DNA from: a virus
IMG/VR virus record: IMGVR_UViG_3300037584_003167
Location: 1-30,243 of that record
Reading direction: 5' to 3' (one strand)
Length of the DNA: 30,243 nt
The notes beneath the pieces are model-generated. The model worked only from the letters and a program-made list of their open reading frames with translations, made no database searches and was not told where the DNA came from. Position 1 is the stretch's first letter, and each line of letters begins with the position of its first letter. Shown here one piece after another: positions 14,658-30,237 of the stretch. The position numbers and the translations under genes are program-made.

Positions 14658-15200
14658 ATGGCTAATTACATGGAAATAATCAGTAAGGATCATTTAGAGT
14701 GGATAGCTATAGTTAGAAGTTTTGGTGGTGGTATATACTCAGAAGATATAGTACAAGATACATATTTACGAATCCATAAAGCTGGTAGCAAAAAAAAAAT
14801 AGTAGTCAATGGAAAAGTAAACAAGGCTTTTATGTGGGTTACACTAAGAAATAACTACATTAATTTTGCTAGGAAAAATGCTAAAATGTATAAAGTAGAA
14901 CTAAAAGATTACCACATGAAAAATCGAATAGAACATGATCAAAAAAGATACATAGCAAATGATGTACTAGAATACAAAATCAATGAAGAAGTAAAAAAAT
15001 GGCATTGGTACGATAGGGATCTATTTGAACTAATAACATCAGGTGAAATTAGCATGAGAAAATTGGCAAGGGAATCTACAATTAGTTTATCTAGCATTGC
15101 AAACACCATGAATAAATGTAGAAGAAAATTACGTGAAGCTATAGGTGAAGATTATGAAGATTATATTAATGGTGATTACAAACAAATTATAGATGCTTAA
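14658..15200 (+). CDS. Sigma-70/ECF-like transcription factor
   Basis: A 180-residue protein built like an ECF sigma factor. Region 2.2 is SEDIVQDTYLRI (residues 28-39), region 2.3/2.4 is FMWVTLRNNYINFARKN (58-74), and region 4 is an ISMRKLARESTISLSSIAN-type helix-turn-helix (131-162) with a basic end. It should bind host RNA polymerase core and direct it to phage promoters, most plausibly late ones. It sits at the boundary between replication genes and terminase/structural genes, with its own promoter and inverted repeat upstream. The repeated ACAAAA-N12-GTTATATA element is a possible target. Confidence 0.75.
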   Translation: MANYMEIISKDHLEWIAIVRSFGGGIYSEDIVQDTYLRIHKAGSKKKIVVNGKVNKAFMWVTLRNNYINFARKNAKMYKVELKDYHMKNRIEHDQKRYIANDVLEYKINEEVKKWHWYDRDLFELITSGEISMRKLARESTISLSSIANTMNKCRRKLREAIGEDYEDYINGDYKQIIDA

Positions 15201-15825: not shown

Positions 15826-16164
15826 ATGGGTAAAGAAGATATTAAAAAACATGAGTTTAAAAAAGGTCAAAGTGGCAACCCAAAAGGTAGACCTAAAGGA
15901 TCTAGAAATAGAAGCACAATAGCTAAGAAATGGCTAACAGCAAATCACAAGGTAAAAAATTCATTGACTGGTAAAGATGAAGTTTTGTCTATAGAAGATG
16001 CTATAACACTATCACAAATTAGAAAGGCTATAGAAGATGGTGATGTACAAAGCTACAAGGCTTTAATGGATAGTGCATTTGGTGGGGTTATACAACAAAA
16101 CGACATGAATCTAAATATAGAAAAAGGCAACCTTCCCGACTGGCTAAATGAAAGCGAATCCTAA
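15826..16164 (+). CDS. Terminase small subunit candidate (DUF5681-like)
   Basis: A 112-residue protein. The N-terminus FKKGQSGNPKGRPKGSRNR (residues about 11-29) is the DUF5681 signature, a basic DNA-binding-like element common just upstream of large terminases. The remainder is helical. It overlaps the large terminase start by 17 bases. The role is to recognise the packaging site and recruit the large subunit; this is inferred from position and the basic motif. Confidence 0.65.
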   Translation: MGKEDIKKHEFKKGQSGNPKGRPKGSRNRSTIAKKWLTANHKVKNSLTGKDEVLSIEDAITLSQIRKAIEDGDVQSYKALMDSAFGGVIQQNDMNLNIEKGNLPDWLNESES

Positions 16165-17287
16165 TTATCTATACGTAAAAAAAAATGTACCTGATAAACG
16201 TGTAACACTATTACAAGGTGGTACAAGATCAGGCAAAACATGGTCTATTATCTACTGGATTATATGGCTATGTAAAGAACACGTAAACTCAGGCATGGAA
16301 ATAGATATCTGTAGGGATACATTTACAGCCTTAAAAAATACAGCGTGGAAAGACTTTAAAGATGTGCTAATGAAACACGATCTATACGATAGGACAGCAC
16401 ATAACATGACTAATGGAAAATACAATCTATTTGGAAATACTATTAGTTACTATGGTGCTGATAGCACAAATAAGATACATGGTAGAAGTAGGGATATTTT
16501 ATGGATAAACGAAGCACACCAATTCCCACAAGAAACAATAGATCAGTTATTCCCTAGAACAAGGTATAGAATAGTATGTGATTATAATCCAGCTTTACCA
16601 GTAGAACATTGGCTGGATCAATACATCTTAGACTATCCACCATTAGTAACTACATACAAAGATAACCCACATCTAACAAATGATCAGATACTAGACATTG
16701 AAAGCAAAATTAAAAATGATTACTGGTGGAAAGTCTATGGTACTGGAATTAGATCACAACCTACTGGTGCTGTATTTAGTAATTATAGTATAGCTAAATT
16801 TGAAGAACACGAAATAGTAGGGTTCGGTCAAGATTACGGATTTAGTAAAGATCCGAGTACCCTGATTAAATGCAGTATCAACAAAGCTAAAAAGAAGATC
16901 TATCTGTATGAATGCTATTTTGAAGCTGGATTATCTACTGGTCAAATATACGATCTAAACATAAAATACGCTGGTAAACATTTGATAGTAGGTGATAGTG
17001 CTGAACCTAGAATGATTCAGGAACTATTTGGTAGGGGTTTAAATATTGTAGAATGCACAAAAGGTGCTGGTAGTGTTACGGCTGGTATTAGCTTAATGCT
17101 AGAATATGATATAGTAATAGATCCTAGTAGCCATAACCTGATCAAAGAATTTAACAATTATTCATGGATAGATAAAACTAACAAATCAGTACCTGAAGAT
17201 AAATGGAATCATGGCATAGATGCATGTAGGTATTTTATATCGAAAATATTACAGAATCCACATAGGGCGAAATACTACATTAACTAA
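16148..17287 (+). CDS. terL: Terminase large subunit
   Basis: A 379-residue packaging motor. Walker A is GGTRSGKT (residues 24-31) and Walker B with the catalytic Glu is DILWINEAHQF (about 112-122). An SKPT-like coupling region and nuclease domain follow: GFGQDYGFSKDPSTL (about 220-235), IVGDSAEPRM (about 275-285) and the C-terminal HGIDACRYF (about 357-365), which supply the metal-binding acids. It pumps DNA through the portal using ATP and cuts concatemers. The length is toward the short end for the family, but all motifs are present. The portal is not adjacent. Confidence 0.9.
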   Translation: MKANPNYLYVKKNVPDKRVTLLQGGTRSGKTWSIIYWIIWLCKEHVNSGMEIDICRDTFTALKNTAWKDFKDVLMKHDLYDRTAHNMTNGKYNLFGNTISYYGADSTNKIHGRSRDILWINEAHQFPQETIDQLFPRTRYRIVCDYNPALPVEHWLDQYILDYPPLVTTYKDNPHLTNDQILDIESKIKNDYWWKVYGTGIRSQPTGAVFSNYSIAKFEEHEIVGFGQDYGFSKDPSTLIKCSINKAKKKIYLYECYFEAGLSTGQIYDLNIKYAGKHLIVGDSAEPRMIQELFGRGLNIVECTKGAGSVTAGISLMLEYDIVIDPSSHNLIKEFNNYSWIDKTNKSVPEDKWNHGIDACRYFISKILQNPHRAKYYIN

Positions 17288-18480: not shown

Positions 18481-19230
18481 ATGAAGGTAAAATACCCTAC
18501 AAAACTTTCTGAAATCCCTTTGGTTAATTACCAGAAATGGATTAATACAGCAAAAAACACTAATGATGAAGAACTATTAGCACATAAATTTGTGCAAATA
18601 TTTTTAGGCTTAGAACTGAATGATGTACGTAGGATGAATGCTAAGGATGTTAATTTCTTTATAGAAAAGGTAATAGAGGTTTTAAACCATAAACCTAAAT
18701 TTCAGAAAAGGTGGAAATATGGACATGTAGAATTTGGTTTAATTCCTGATCTAGAAAACATGTCATGGGGTGAATACATAGATATTGAATCAAATATGCA
18801 TCAGGTGGAAAACTGGCATAAAGCAATGGCTGTATTATATAGACCTATTACCGAAACGTACAAAGATACGTATAACATAGGTGCATATACTGGTGATGAT
18901 CTATTACACGAACCAATGAAACATGCACCATTAGAAGTTGTTTTAGGTGTTCAGGTTTTTTTTTATCATTTAGAAAAAGAATTGTTAAGCAGTACCCTAT
19001 CATCTTTAGAGCATCAGATGAAGAGTCTGAAGAACGAAACAACGAATACAGCGAAGCAACCCAATTTAACAAGCAATGGGGATTCTATCACAGCATCTAT
19101 AAAGTCGCTAAAGGCGACATTACAAAATTTGACCTTGTTACAGCCCTACCATTACATAAAGCATTCACATTCCTCAGCTACGAAGTACAAAAAGATAGAA
19201 TCGAACATAACAGAATTAATAGACAATTAA
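18481..19230 (+). CDS. Tail assembly chaperone, frame-0 product (gpG-like)
   Basis: A 249-residue protein. The first ~160 residues look like a well-formed helical domain (KYPTKLSEIPLVNYQKW, then VEFGLIPDLENMSWGEYIDI). After the nine-T run at 18956-18964 the frame continues as a Ser/Thr/Asn-rich, helical tail. A second frame is open over the same bases and reads as a better-formed protein. This arrangement matches lambda G/GT-type tail chaperones, which keep tape-measure protein soluble during tail assembly. The position upstream of tail completion and tape-measure genes fits. Confidence 0.65.
   Translation: MKVKYPTKLSEIPLVNYQKWINTAKNTNDEELLAHKFVQIFLGLELNDVRRMNAKDVNFFIEKVIEVLNHKPKFQKRWKYGHVEFGLIPDLENMSWGEYIDIESNMHQVENWHKAMAVLYRPITETYKDTYNIGAYTGDDLLHEPMKHAPLEVVLGVQVFFYHLEKELLSSTLSSLEHQMKSLKNETTNTAKQPNLTSNGDSITASIKSLKATLQNLTLLQPYHYIKHSHSSATKYKKIESNITELIDN
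18956..18964 (+). promoter_or_regulatory. Candidate -1 frameshift slippery run (T9)
   Basis: Nine T residues. In frame 0 the codons are GTT TTT TTT TAT, so 18957-18963 is a T-TTT-TTT slippery heptamer. A -1 slip enters the frame that runs open from 18900 to the TGA at 19242. Transcriptional slippage or a homopolymer error are alternatives. Confidence 0.6.
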
Positions 19231-19244
19231 ATAGAACAAGATGA
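18963..19244 (+). CDS. Tail chaperone -1 frameshift extension (gpT-like), joined to 18481
   Basis: Read in the -1 frame after the slip site, this gives 93 residues and a predicted 254-residue fusion. The sequence QFNKQWGFYHSIYKVAKGD followed by ITKFDLVTALPLHKAFTFLS reads as a real domain, similar in pattern to second chaperone proteins of Bacteroidetes phages. Its TGA (19242-19244) overlaps the ATG of the next gene (19241) as ATGA, the normal coupling seen in this genome. The region 18964-19230 would thus be coded in two frames. Codons here are GC-richer than the surroundings, fitting double constraint. Confidence 0.6.
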   Translation, partial: LSFRKRIVKQYPIIFRASDEESEERNNEYSEATQFNKQWGFYHSIYKVAKGDITKFDLVTALPLHKAFTFLSYEVQKDRIEHNRINRQLNRTR

Positions 19245-19675
19245 ATGAAGGGTATGCATTATTATACACTAAATTAATAGATAATTTATCTAATAACCCA
19301 TTAGTAAATTTAGTTACTGAGGGATTAACGGATGAAATTGATCTTGGAAAACAAACCATTTTTCCATTAGCACATGTAGTAATTAATTCAGCTACATTCC
19401 AAAATAATGCAGTATCATTTCAGGTAGATATATATTGTATGGACATTGTAGATATATCAGATGATGGTATAGACAATAAAAAAGACGTTATGAATACGCA
19501 ATACAATATCCTTTTAAGACTATATGAAGATCTCAGAAGGGGTACACTATGGAATGATGATATAGAAATTGAAAGCATGTCAGTAACAGCCTTTGAACAA
19601 GCATACGAAAACTATTTAGCTGGATGGAGTGCTAGTCTAAGTATTTTAGTACCTAATCACATGACAATATGCTAA
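19241..19675 (+). CDS. Tail completion / terminator-like protein
   Basis: A 144-residue protein with DEIDLGKQTIFPLAHVVINS, a central FQVDIYCMDIVDISDDG and a C-terminal ENYLAGWSASLSILVPNHM. This pattern is familiar from the small protein that precedes the neck protein in Bacteroidetes tail clusters, probably the tail-terminator analogue that caps the tube. Its start overlaps the frameshift product's stop, and its end overlaps the next gene by seven bases. The role is inferred from position. Confidence 0.6.
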   Translation: MNEGYALLYTKLIDNLSNNPLVNLVTEGLTDEIDLGKQTIFPLAHVVINSATFQNNAVSFQVDIYCMDIVDISDDGIDNKKDVMNTQYNILLRLYEDLRRGTLWNDDIEIESMSVTAFEQAYENYLAGWSASLSILVPNHMTIC

Positions 19676-23780: not shown

Positions 23781-23945
23781 ATGCTAGGTATTAGCAACGT
23801 AGAATTTAACGAGGCTATAGATACAGCAAAAGGTAAATACAAATATCCAATAACACTAAAAGACTTTTATAAGGTTCGCAAAAGGGAACTAAAATACAGA
23901 AAAAATGAGCAGAGAAAAGGTAGTAAAGCTGAAGGTAGAAAGTAA
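23781..23945 (+). CDS. Small basic protein before tape measure
   Basis: A 54-residue protein from the ATG at 23781, 13 bases after the baseplate gene (an upstream GTG at 23754 would lengthen it). Contents: SNVEFNEAIDTAKGKY then ITLKDFYKVRKREL, with a Lys/Arg-rich end. It overlaps the tape-measure start by 41 bases. It might be a tail-chaperone-like or tape-measure partner; its size and position are the only support. Confidence 0.5.
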   Translation: MLGISNVEFNEAIDTAKGKYKYPITLKDFYKVRKRELKYRKNEQRKGSKAEGRK

Positions 23946-26169
23946 TGTAAAAAACATTACAGATGAATACAAAGGCTTAAATGAAGAAATAAAAGAACAA
24001 GGTAAATTAGTTGATGAAACTAATACAAGTTTTGAAAAACTAGATGAAACTACTAGTAAATACACTAATAAAGCTAGTGAAGGTTTTAAAAAAGTTGCTG
24101 AACAAAGCAAAAAAATAAAACAAAACATAAAAGGTGGTACACAAGCATTTGAAGGTGGTGCTACGGCTGTACAATTTTATGGTGATAGTCTAAGTTTAGT
24201 GGGTGCTGAATCTGAAAAGCTAGATGATAGTTTAAAAAAGGTAGATCAGGCTATGCGATTATCTAAAGGTGTAGCTGGTGTAAGAAAAAGCATAACAGCG
24301 ATTAAAGGGTTTACAGCAACCAGCAAAACAGCTACAAAAGTTCAATTATTTTTTGGTAAAATAATGGGCAAATCTACTGGAATGCTAAAAGCCTTTAGAT
24401 TAGCTTTAATTTCTACTGGTATAGGTGCATTAGTAATTGGTGTGGGTTTACTAATAGCTAATTTTGAGAAACTACTAGATGTTTTTTCACCTATTACAGA
24501 TGGTCTAAAGTCTTTAGGTGATGCTATTGGGTTAACTAGCTTTGCTGAAGATGAACGAAAAGAAAAAATAAAATCACGATTAGAAGCACAACAGAAGGCG
24601 TATGAACAAGAAGTAAAAAATCACAATCAACGTATGGATGCGTATCGGCAAGAACAAGCTGAACAAGATAAACTTTTGGGCAAAGAAATTGAATTAGCAA
24701 AAGCACGTGGTGAAGATACTACTGATATGCAAAGACAACAGCTAGAACAAAGATTAGCAGATTTGAAAAAAAATCTAGCAAAAGAAGAGAAAGCATACAT
24801 GGATGCAGATGATGGCTGGTTACAAAGTCGACATGATGAAATTGTGGAGTCCAATGAAGCAATACTATTTTTACAAAAAAAAGGTGTTAAAGAATTTAGC
24901 CAATTAAATTTTGAAGCACAAGATGAATTTAGAAAAACTTTTAGGTTTGGTATGTCGCGATCTATTGAAGGTCTAAAAACACAAATAAAACAAGCTAATG
25001 AATCAATAACATACGAAGCTGAAGTAGTAAGAAAACGATTTGGTAAAACTACACAAGCACAAATAGATGAAGCACAAAAGAATATTGAAATATTTGAGGC
25101 AAGAAATACAGCCTCAGAAAAAGCAGAACAAAAAAAGAAAAACGACAATTATAAAACATATTTACAAAATAGATTAAATGCTGAAAGGCAAATGGAGGAT
25201 ATGAGAAATTCTCTATTAGAAGAAGGTATAGAAAAAGATCTAACTATAAATGAAACTAAATTTAAACGGCTACGTGAGGATGCCCTTAAAAACACCAATT
25301 TAACAAGAACTGAGAAAAAAGCATTAGAGGATCTTTACGATCAACAAGAAATACAAGCACGTGAAAAAATTAATCAAAAGTACGTTGATTTAGAGAAAGC
25401 GAAAAATGAAAAAATTGATAAAATTAATCAAAAAGAAAATGCTGATAGAATAGCACGTGAAGATGCACAATATCAATTAGAATTACAATTACAAGCTGAT
25501 AGGCAAGAAGCTGAAATAATACTATTAACCCAAAAATATGACAAACAATTTGAACTAGCTAGTGGTAATGCTGAACTTGAAAAGATGCTAACTGAACAAA
25601 TGAATTTAGATATAGCAAATATCAATCAAAAGTTTAGGGATGAAGAAGCAAAAAAAGAAGCTGATGCATTAAACCTACGAAAGCAAAACGAAATGTCTAA
25701 AGTAGAAATGGGGTTAAGTGCATTAACATTAATTAGTAATATAGCTGATAGTATGGCTGGTGAAGATGTAGAACGTCAAAAGAAAGCCTTCAATATTAAA
25801 AAGGCTGTAGACATTGCACAAGCTACAATGGATGGATATAAAGCTGTATTATCGGCATATGCACAAGCACCAGTAGGTTTTAAAATACCAGCATCTATTA
25901 TAGCTGGTGGGTTTAGTGCATTACAAATAGGAAATATTGCTAAACAAAAATTTCAATCACCTGAACCTGATGATCTAGCATCAGGTGGTGGTGGTGGTGG
26001 TGGTGAACCTAGTGTACCAGCTACACCTGAATTTAACATCATTAGTGGTGCTGAATTAACAGATACAGAAGGTGTAGGGCAACAGCCATTACAAGCATTT
26101 GTAGTCAGTACCGAAGTAACTACAGCACAAGGCTTAGATCGTAATAGAGTAGAAAATGCGACAATTTAA
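23905..26169 (+). CDS. Tape-measure protein
   Basis: A 754-residue protein with a long helical body, a hydrophobic segment (about residues 165-187, FRLALISTGIGALVIGVGLL) typical of tape-measure proteins, and a second semi-hydrophobic segment near 660-700 (AVLSAYAQAPVGFKIPASII then GGFSALQIGN). Between them are long Glu/Lys/Gln coiled coils. Near the C-terminus is a poly-Gly linker, followed by a QPLQAFVVSTEVTTAQGLDR tail shared with other Bacteroidetes tape measures. The length sets the tail tube length, so a siphovirus is expected. Confidence 0.8.
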   Translation: MSREKVVKLKVESNVKNITDEYKGLNEEIKEQGKLVDETNTSFEKLDETTSKYTNKASEGFKKVAEQSKKIKQNIKGGTQAFEGGATAVQFYGDSLSLVGAESEKLDDSLKKVDQAMRLSKGVAGVRKSITAIKGFTATSKTATKVQLFFGKIMGKSTGMLKAFRLALISTGIGALVIGVGLLIANFEKLLDVFSPITDGLKSLGDAIGLTSFAEDERKEKIKSRLEAQQKAYEQEVKNHNQRMDAYRQEQAEQDKLLGKEIELAKARGEDTTDMQRQQLEQRLADLKKNLAKEEKAYMDADDGWLQSRHDEIVESNEAILFLQKKGVKEFSQLNFEAQDEFRKTFRFGMSRSIEGLKTQIKQANESITYEAEVVRKRFGKTTQAQIDEAQKNIEIFEARNTASEKAEQKKKNDNYKTYLQNRLNAERQMEDMRNSLLEEGIEKDLTINETKFKRLREDALKNTNLTRTEKKALEDLYDQQEIQAREKINQKYVDLEKAKNEKIDKINQKENADRIAREDAQYQLELQLQADRQEAEIILLTQKYDKQFELASGNAELEKMLTEQMNLDIANINQKFRDEEAKKEADALNLRKQNEMSKVEMGLSALTLISNIADSMAGEDVERQKKAFNIKKAVDIAQATMDGYKAVLSAYAQAPVGFKIPASIIAGGFSALQIGNIAKQKFQSPEPDDLASGGGGGGGEPSVPATPEFNIISGAELTDTEGVGQQPLQAFVVSTEVTTAQGLDRNRVENATI
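25984..26004 (+). repeat. (GGT)7 microsatellite coding poly-Gly linker
   Basis: Seven GGT triplets in a row encode a seven-Gly linker near the tape-measure C-terminus, just before PSVPATPEFN. Slipped-strand changes here would only change linker length, so it may vary between strains. Confidence 0.75.
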
Positions 26170-28866: not shown

Positions 28867-29233
28867 TAAACTAGCCAAAGAAACACCAGCTAAACGAAAA
28901 GTAAAGCTAAGTAAAGTAAATGATCTAATGGATCAGATTAAAGAATGTCGTGAAGAAATGAATCAAATAGCTTTACAAAGTGAAAATGCATTAACTGATG
29001 TGCAAAATGCATTAGGTGAATTAAGAATAATTCAAGAATCAAAAATACCATCATTATCATTTGATAAAGATGAATTATTAAATCAGGTACTAGATTTAGG
29101 TATTGATGTACCACAAGAATTAAACGAATTAGATCAAATGTTGGTAGATGCTGAAACTATAGATGCTGATGCCTTTGATTTAGTATCAAAAGTAGAAGAT
29201 CTAAGATCAGAACTAAGTAAATTTATGTTATAA
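28850..29233 (+). CDS. Array paralogue 5 (helical, LGIDVPQE motif)
   Basis: A 127-residue protein from the ATG at 28850, chosen because MQKIYNKLAKETPAKRKVKL then aligns with the other array members; an ATG 15 bases upstream would add five unrelated residues. The turn motif is LDLGIDVPQELNEL (about 80-93). Acidic helical body. It overlaps paralogue 4 by 17 bases and lies two bases before the scaffold candidate. Confidence 0.6.
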   Translation: MQKIYNKLAKETPAKRKVKLSKVNDLMDQIKECREEMNQIALQSENALTDVQNALGELRIIQESKIPSLSFDKDELLNQVLDLGIDVPQELNELDQMLVDAETIDADAFDLVSKVEDLRSELSKFML

Positions 29234-29235
29234 TT

Positions 29236-30237
29236 ATGAAAGCAAAAGAAACACTAGACAAAATAAGAACAGCTTTAAATATGAAAGTAGAATTAGAAAC
29301 AATGACATTAGAAGATGGTGTCACAATTTTAGAAGCCGAATCATTTACGGAAGGTGCTGAAGTCTTTATCGTAATGGATGAAGAACGTGTACCATTAGCA
29401 GTAGGTGAATATACCCTAGAAGATGGTAGATCTTTAGTAGTAGAAACAGAAGGTATTATTGCTATGGTAGGTGAACAAGTAGAAGGTGAAGAAGAAGAAG
29501 AAGTAAAGCCTGAAGTAGATGAAGAAATGGCAAATGACAAGCCTAAAATGATTTCTGAAACTAAAATTAAAGAAACATATTTTGAAGAAGAAACACCTGA
29601 AGAAGTAGCTGATACTATTAAAGAAGTAGAAGATGAAGTTTTAGGTGAAGTATCTACAATTATCGAAGAATTAACACCTGAAGCTGTAACTGAATCAGAT
29701 GCCTCAGAAATGGCTGTAGCAGTCGTAGAAGCTGTTACAGATACTTTAGAAGAAATGCCTGAAGATTTAAAAGACGTATATAAGAAAAAACGTAAAAAGT
29801 ACGGCAAAGCAAAACTAACAGATGAAGAAGCTGAAGTAGTTGCTGAAGCTGAAGGGCAAATAACAGAGGCTGTAGCTGAAGTAGTAAGTGCTGAAACACC
29901 TGAAGAAATTACACCTGAAATAGCTGAAGAAATAGCTGTTGTAATTACTGAGGCAGTACAAGAAATTGTAGCTGATGCACCTGAAGAGTTAAAAGCACAA
30001 CTATTTAAGAAAACAAAATTGTCTAAGACTAAAAGAAACACGAAGTCTAGAATTGATATGGCAAAAGAAAAAATTGCTAGAATACAAAAAAGACAAGAAC
30101 TAAAGACAAAAACAAATTCAGGGAAAAGATATGTACATAACCCTGAAGCAATAAGCAAAGAAAAACAACAATTTAAAATTAGCGAAGGACGTGAAATGAA
30201 CACTATGGATCGCATTTTAAATAAATTGTATAAATAA
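29236..30237 (+). CDS. Glu-rich scaffold / capsid-assembly candidate
   Basis: A 333-residue protein directly upstream of the capsid gene on the circle. N-terminus: TLDKIRTALNMKVEL, a variant of the array's N-terminal motif. Residues about 22-80 look like a small beta domain (EDGVTILEAESF, RVPLAVGEYTLEDGRSLVVE). The middle is extremely acidic, with two ~42-residue helical repeats (147-188 and 221-262, each TPE..., EAV, MPEDLK/APEELK) that end in basic patches. The C-terminal ~70 residues are basic and end in MDRILNKLYK. Position, charge and coiled-coil nature fit a scaffold trimmed by the XkdF-type protease. Confidence 0.65.
   Translation: MKAKETLDKIRTALNMKVELETMTLEDGVTILEAESFTEGAEVFIVMDEERVPLAVGEYTLEDGRSLVVETEGIIAMVGEQVEGEEEEEVKPEVDEEMANDKPKMISETKIKETYFEEETPEEVADTIKEVEDEVLGEVSTIIEELTPEAVTESDASEMAVAVVEAVTDTLEEMPEDLKDVYKKKRKKYGKAKLTDEEAEVVAEAEGQITEAVAEVVSAETPEEITPEIAEEIAVVITEAVQEIVADAPEELKAQLFKKTKLSKTKRNTKSRIDMAKEKIARIQKRQELKTKTNSGKRYVHNPEAISKEKQQFKISEGREMNTMDRILNKLYK

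Follow-up and report, generated by a model that had tools for sequence, protein, structure and literature searches.

A conserved T9 run and two reading frames under selection in a candidate tail assembly chaperone gene of phages

Frameshifted tail chaperones are textbook knowledge, and such genes are usually recognised within the tail module by a −1 extension that follows a shared front. The locus studied here, part of a virus record of 30,243 bases (the whole stretch of DNA that was analysed, called the window below), raises a question about this scheme: after a run of nine T residues, both frame 0 and frame −1 stay open for a long distance, and the DNA could encode two alternative protein ends. 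We asked whether both ends are kept by selection, how the reading passes from one frame to the other, and what the two products might do. An earlier note on this DNA had proposed a programmed −1 frameshift in a tail chaperone gene with roughly 88 codons read in two frames.

Gene layout and the T run in relatives

The T9 run lies in the register GTT TTT TTT TAT and is the only run of at least eight T residues in the window. Inspection of the sequence bore out the elements that the earlier note had described, namely a T_TTT_TTT heptamer in the right register, a frame 0 that stays open to the end of the ORF, and a −1 frame with a stop-to-stop opening from 18900 to 19244 whose TGA shares bases with the next gene's ATG in the sequence ATGA (Table 1), coupling the −1 stop to that start codon. 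Beyond the run, frame 0 continues for 88 codons versus 93 in frame −1. The hand count of 69 G or C among the 180 bases at 19021–19200, given as above the surroundings, was likewise correct and corresponds to the 96.6th percentile among the window's 180-base stretches. In 96% of 233 relatives the overlap is richer in G+C than the upstream part of the gene, a rise that is consistent with codon constraint. Elsewhere in the window, a 330-aa antisense ORF (29223–30215, minus strand) lies over a 333-aa gene at 29236–30237.

Table 1. Features of the frameshift gene and its neighbourhood in the window
Feature	Position	Strand	Evidence
Terminase large subunit (TerL)	16148–17287	+	
Frame-0 ORF, 249 aa (shared N-terminal domain and frame-0 tail)	18481–19230	+	ORF list, translation, aligned relatives
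N-terminal domain of both predicted products, 161 aa	18481–18963	+	PHROG 32199 match (unknown function)
Putative T9 slip site, GTT TTT TTT T	18956–18964	+	T9/T10 in 369/369 distinct relative contexts
Dual-coded frame-0 tail, overlapping frame −1 (88 codons, then stop)	18964–19230	+	Selection tests, predicted structure
C-terminal domain in frame −1, 93 codons and TGA; entry by slippage at T9	18963–19244	+	
TAG closing the +1 frame directly after the T run (product of a T8 transcript)	18971–18973	+	269/275 relatives at same codon
Next tail-module gene; ATG overlaps the −1 stop as ATGA	19241–19675	+	
Probable tape measure protein, four genes downstream of the frameshift gene	23905–26169	+	

Relatives were sought with the N-terminal domain, with the −1 domain and with alignments built from distant members, giving 435 loci that represent 369 distinct 300-base contexts; the relatives are not independent of one another. 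The sources were IMG/VR contigs, two marine Nonlabens phages and one Bacteroidetes MAG contig. A scan of IMG/VR with the window's −1 frame alone returned no relatives. As a check on its length, the T run was followed across this set, and it proved to be uninterrupted at the frame transition in every context, with T9 in 340, T10 in 29 and a shorter run in none. The run occupies several codon registers, among them NTT TTT TTT T, TTT TTT TTT C and AGT TTT TTT TTT. The −1 domain could be located in 365 of the 369 contexts, 364 of which have it in frame −1, a conservation that upholds the reading of this frame as a genuine domain. Loci recovered through the −1 domain alone have the same T run and the same frame, and the pattern is therefore not an artefact of the search route.

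The sole exception is a locus (L170) in which a T10 run at 959–968 places the −1 domain in frame, producing one continuous fusion ORF (487–1239). Natural variation, a minority sequence or faulty assembly could each account for this T10, and the locus is the only in-frame fusion among those fetched. Five single predicted proteins in BFVD (A0A6J5N0W0, A0A516L5A8, A0A516L611, A0A6J7WJY4 and A0A6J7WDG4; 226–267 aa) match models of both the N-terminal and the −1 domain, which suggests that they may be in-frame fusions in other phages.

Possible routes into the −1 frame

An own start for the −1 frame was looked for as an ATG within its first 30 codons, and none was present at 255 of 258 loci. The proposal of a programmed −1 frameshift stands in so far as the transition to frame −1 at the T9 run is concerned (364/365); a ribosomal shift was not established as its cause, and slippage by RNA polymerase fits at least as well. 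Ribosomal −1 slippage at T_TTT_TTT without a strong stimulator is nonetheless quite possible, and the gene and its products would then be unchanged. The heptamer has the form X_XXY_YYZ and sits in the zero-frame register in the loci examined, the shift would have the same −1 direction as in lambda, and ribosomal recoding is the known mode for tail chaperone genes (PMC5009743).

Against a ribosomal shift stands the absence of a conserved downstream structure: an alignment of 26 sequences gave no consensus pairs, and single-sequence folds downstream of the slip were unremarkable (z from −1.3 to +1.0). A downstream stimulatory RNA structure is usual for programmed −1 ribosomal frameshifting, though not obligatory. 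The wobble position upstream shows little extra constraint, and the run itself is held more tightly than X_XXY_YYZ demands. Both Phe codons are TTT in all 275 sequences, versus a share of TTC of 21–28% among Phe codons elsewhere. A C at the second Phe wobble would be compatible with X_XXY_YYZ and silent in frame 0, and silent also in frame −1 for the 231 sequences with Leu, yet it occurs in 0 of 275.

Homopolymer runs are also avoided outside this site. Across 97 representative loci, coding DNA contains 5 T runs of at least eight versus ∼26 expected from synonymous shuffles, an approximately five-fold depletion, while the present gene retains its own run. In many bacterial genomes, signs of selection against slippage commonly start at runs of nine (PMC1088944). 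Given that no RNA structure is conserved, that the run is never shorter than nine and that T runs are depleted elsewhere, these sequence patterns tilt us towards RNA-polymerase slippage over unstimulated ribosomal slippage. Because several of the T residues are fixed by the amino acids of one or the other frame, and because the relatives are not independent, this is a lean and not proof. In the same representative loci, A runs of at least nine are likewise depleted in coding DNA. The window holds an A10 run at 14790–14799, inside an ORF at 14658–15200 (with a weak sigma-70 match), which is a possible second slippage site.

Polymerase slippage would place the gene beside the bacterial A9/T9 transcriptional-slippage genes, such as Thermus dnaX, IS transposases and type III secretion genes, with which it shares nine uninterrupted residues where the frame changes and the depletion of such runs elsewhere in coding DNA (PMC1088944, PMC5009743). 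Unlike those, it is a phage tail gene with a long dual-coded region under selection in two frames, and slippage is read here from sequence. In potyvirus P3N-PIPO and other overlapping ORFs accessed by slippage, too, two C-termini come from one stretch, one of them via slippage (PMC5009743), although these are RNA viruses of plants with different proteins and the analogy is one of layout only.

Predicted products and candidate role

With the standard reading, the gene would give a 249-residue form made of the common 161-residue front followed by two helices, the first of them extended. Slippage at the T9 run, either through one T gained in the mRNA or through a −1 ribosomal slip, would instead give a fusion of ∼254 residues ending in a different helical domain, which is encoded by the same DNA as the frame-0 tail. 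A transcript of eight T residues would yield a third product, a short one that stops at 18973; the loss of one T would likewise lead to a stop two codons later in 269 of 275 relatives. An AlphaFold2 model of the frame-0 form, built with 33 relatives, has a mean pLDDT of 77, with a helix at residues 151–189 that spans the slip point and a second helix at 198–217, while the last 24 residues are unconfident. The −1 domain is also modelled as helical (pLDDT 72). Sequence searches of Pfam, NCBIfam and the PDB, together with Foldseek and VIA-align comparisons against the PDB, returned generic helix pairs only.

By its position and its G/GT-like layout, the gene product is probably a tail assembly chaperone. 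In the window, the gene follows a LamG-like gene and precedes a neck/terminator-like gene, and the order TerL, frameshift gene and the genes starting at 19241, 19669, 20196 and 21326 is found in most of the 31 relatives checked. Two predicted products with a common N-terminal part, the second reached by a −1 transition, are a layout conserved in relatives. As in lambda gpG/gpGT, a common N-terminal part is followed at its end by a slip in the −1 direction to a second domain, within the tail module. Several features differ from lambda. The lambda G frame ends soon after the slip, whereas the frame-0 tail of the present gene roughly matches the −1 domain in length and is selected; the slip site is a homopolymer without conserved RNA structure; and lambda G/T adjoins the tape measure gene, to which the frameshift gene is not adjacent in the window. 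By analogy, the shared 161 residues would be the part that binds the tape measure protein, and recruitment of the tail tube protein would fall to the −1 domain; the frame-0 tail would be an addition with no counterpart in lambda.

The assignment as a tail chaperone made in the earlier note thus retains the support of the gene's position among the tail genes and of the layout with a shared front, and lacks a sequence or fold match that names it: Pfam, NCBIfam, PHROG and the PDB gave no match naming a chaperone, and the PHROG and BFVD matches were unnamed phage proteins only. The gene could alternatively encode another tail or connector protein that is made in two forms, which we regard as the less likely role. 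Such a role would agree with the place of the gene after TerL (with the LamG-like gene between them in the window) and before the neck/terminator-like gene, with the four-gene distance to the tape measure gene and with the failure to match known chaperones. The shared front with a −1 extension argues against it, and no other chaperone candidate was found in the module.

The closest annotated parallel to this candidate chaperone gene is in the Nonlabens (Persicivirga) phages P12024S and P12024L, where genes 38 and 39 share the gene order, an N-terminal domain of ∼24% identity, T9 at the equivalent codon and, with ∼36% identity to that of a relative, a homologous −1 domain. In contrast to the window, their frame-0 tail is only ∼25 codons long, and they are annotated as two hypothetical genes with no frameshift noted. 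Genes 38 and 39 of P12024S are probably one frameshifted gene. In P12024S (JQ823122.1, 23136–23830), a separate PHROG (38404) covers the −1 part.

Selection on the two frames of the overlap

Substitutions in the overlap were compared across 85 independent pairs, scoring by BLOSUM the changes that are silent in one frame against changes of the same type from the same sequence, with stops excluded. Substitutions silent in frame −1 scored +0.52 in frame 0 versus −0.50 expected (z 12.8), and the reverse test, in which changes silent in frame 0 were scored in frame −1, gave z 11.5. Fictitious frames upstream and past the frame-0 stop served as controls and gave no excess (z 1.0, 1.3 and −0.9). An earlier run on 57 pairs agrees, with the frame-0 constraint strongest at codons 0–15 and 45–62 and weakest at codons 15–45. 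Wobble rates were 0.04–0.10 in the overlap versus 0.15–0.20 upstream and 0.19 in the next gene, so that wobble variation is reduced 2- to 5-fold. Counting stop codons is circular within the overlap, and such counts were used only past the frame-0 stop, where codons able to make a stop (51 of 74 versus 50.3 expected) are at background, and for an estimate of chance. Under a null in which only the −1 codons are maintained, the chance of frame 0 staying open so long is ∼1e-4 for the window, with a median of 2e-5 over 55 representatives. These comparisons support purifying selection on both frames, and the proposed double reading of ∼88 codons, with conservation of both frames across relatives, was borne out by them. 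The frame-0 motif NGDGI was considered as a sign of frame-0 conservation and rejected, being a by-product of the −1 motif WGWY.

It is improbable that only the −1 fusion matters and that frame 0 is merely free of stops, for instance to carry most ribosomes towards the start of the next gene. Of the two frames, −1 does encode the domain with the stronger conservation, its stop is coupled to the start codon of the next gene, and frame-0 codons 15–45 showed little constraint in the first test of 57 pairs. But constraint on the amino acids of frame 0 persists when stops are excluded, and is strongest at codons 0–15, and in many relatives frame 0 ends ∼25 codons ahead of the −1 stop. The reading of T9 as a sequencing or assembly error in a single-frame gene, to which the in-frame T10 locus would lend itself, is refuted by the 364 distinct contexts, drawn from many samples, that combine a run of nine or ten with the −1 arrangement, by the same arrangement in isolated, completely sequenced Nonlabens phages and by selection on both frames.

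In most relatives the dual-coded length is at least 46 codons; a frame-0 stop within 46 codons is confined to 10 of 369 contexts, comprising 3 of the Nonlabens group, the pair L360/L361, 4 contigs with 39 codons and L091. After the slip, frame 0 runs for ∼25 codons in the isolated Nonlabens phages and for ∼15 in L360/L361; the long frame-0 tail is therefore not required across the wider family. In L091, a single TAG ∼19 codons past the T run shuts frame 0 and leaves the −1 frame intact, in a locus that is otherwise like L093.

Taken as a whole, the explanation of one G/GT-type chaperone gene with two selected C-terminal ends, the second reached when RNA polymerase, as the most likely slipping enzyme, adds a T, has in our judgement about an even chance of being right in all its parts. 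The layout, its conservation and the selection on both frames are observations; the synthesis of both products, slippage by the polymerase and a chaperone function are what we infer.

Two things are new in this gene: a frame-0 tail that is long and selected, and a homopolymer at the slip. Other tail chaperone genes usually close frame 0 shortly past the slip, at a mean distance of 26 nt for the SEA-PHAGES genes and 36 nt for those of the Xu set (PMC10885494), and here the distance is typically ∼140–270 nt. A literature search found no report of such an arrangement in Bacteroidota phages and none of polymerase slippage in a tail chaperone, which, with partial coverage, is weak evidence of absence in both cases. 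Genes of this kind would be prone to escape prediction tools that rely on the slip-to-stop distance, and the only annotated relative is split into two hypothetical genes. We tentatively propose that a large phage lineage may make its chaperone isoforms through polymerase slippage, obtaining two functional C-terminal domains of nearly equal length from one stretch of DNA. If polymerase slippage is confirmed, phages can set the stoichiometry of their chaperones at the level of transcription.
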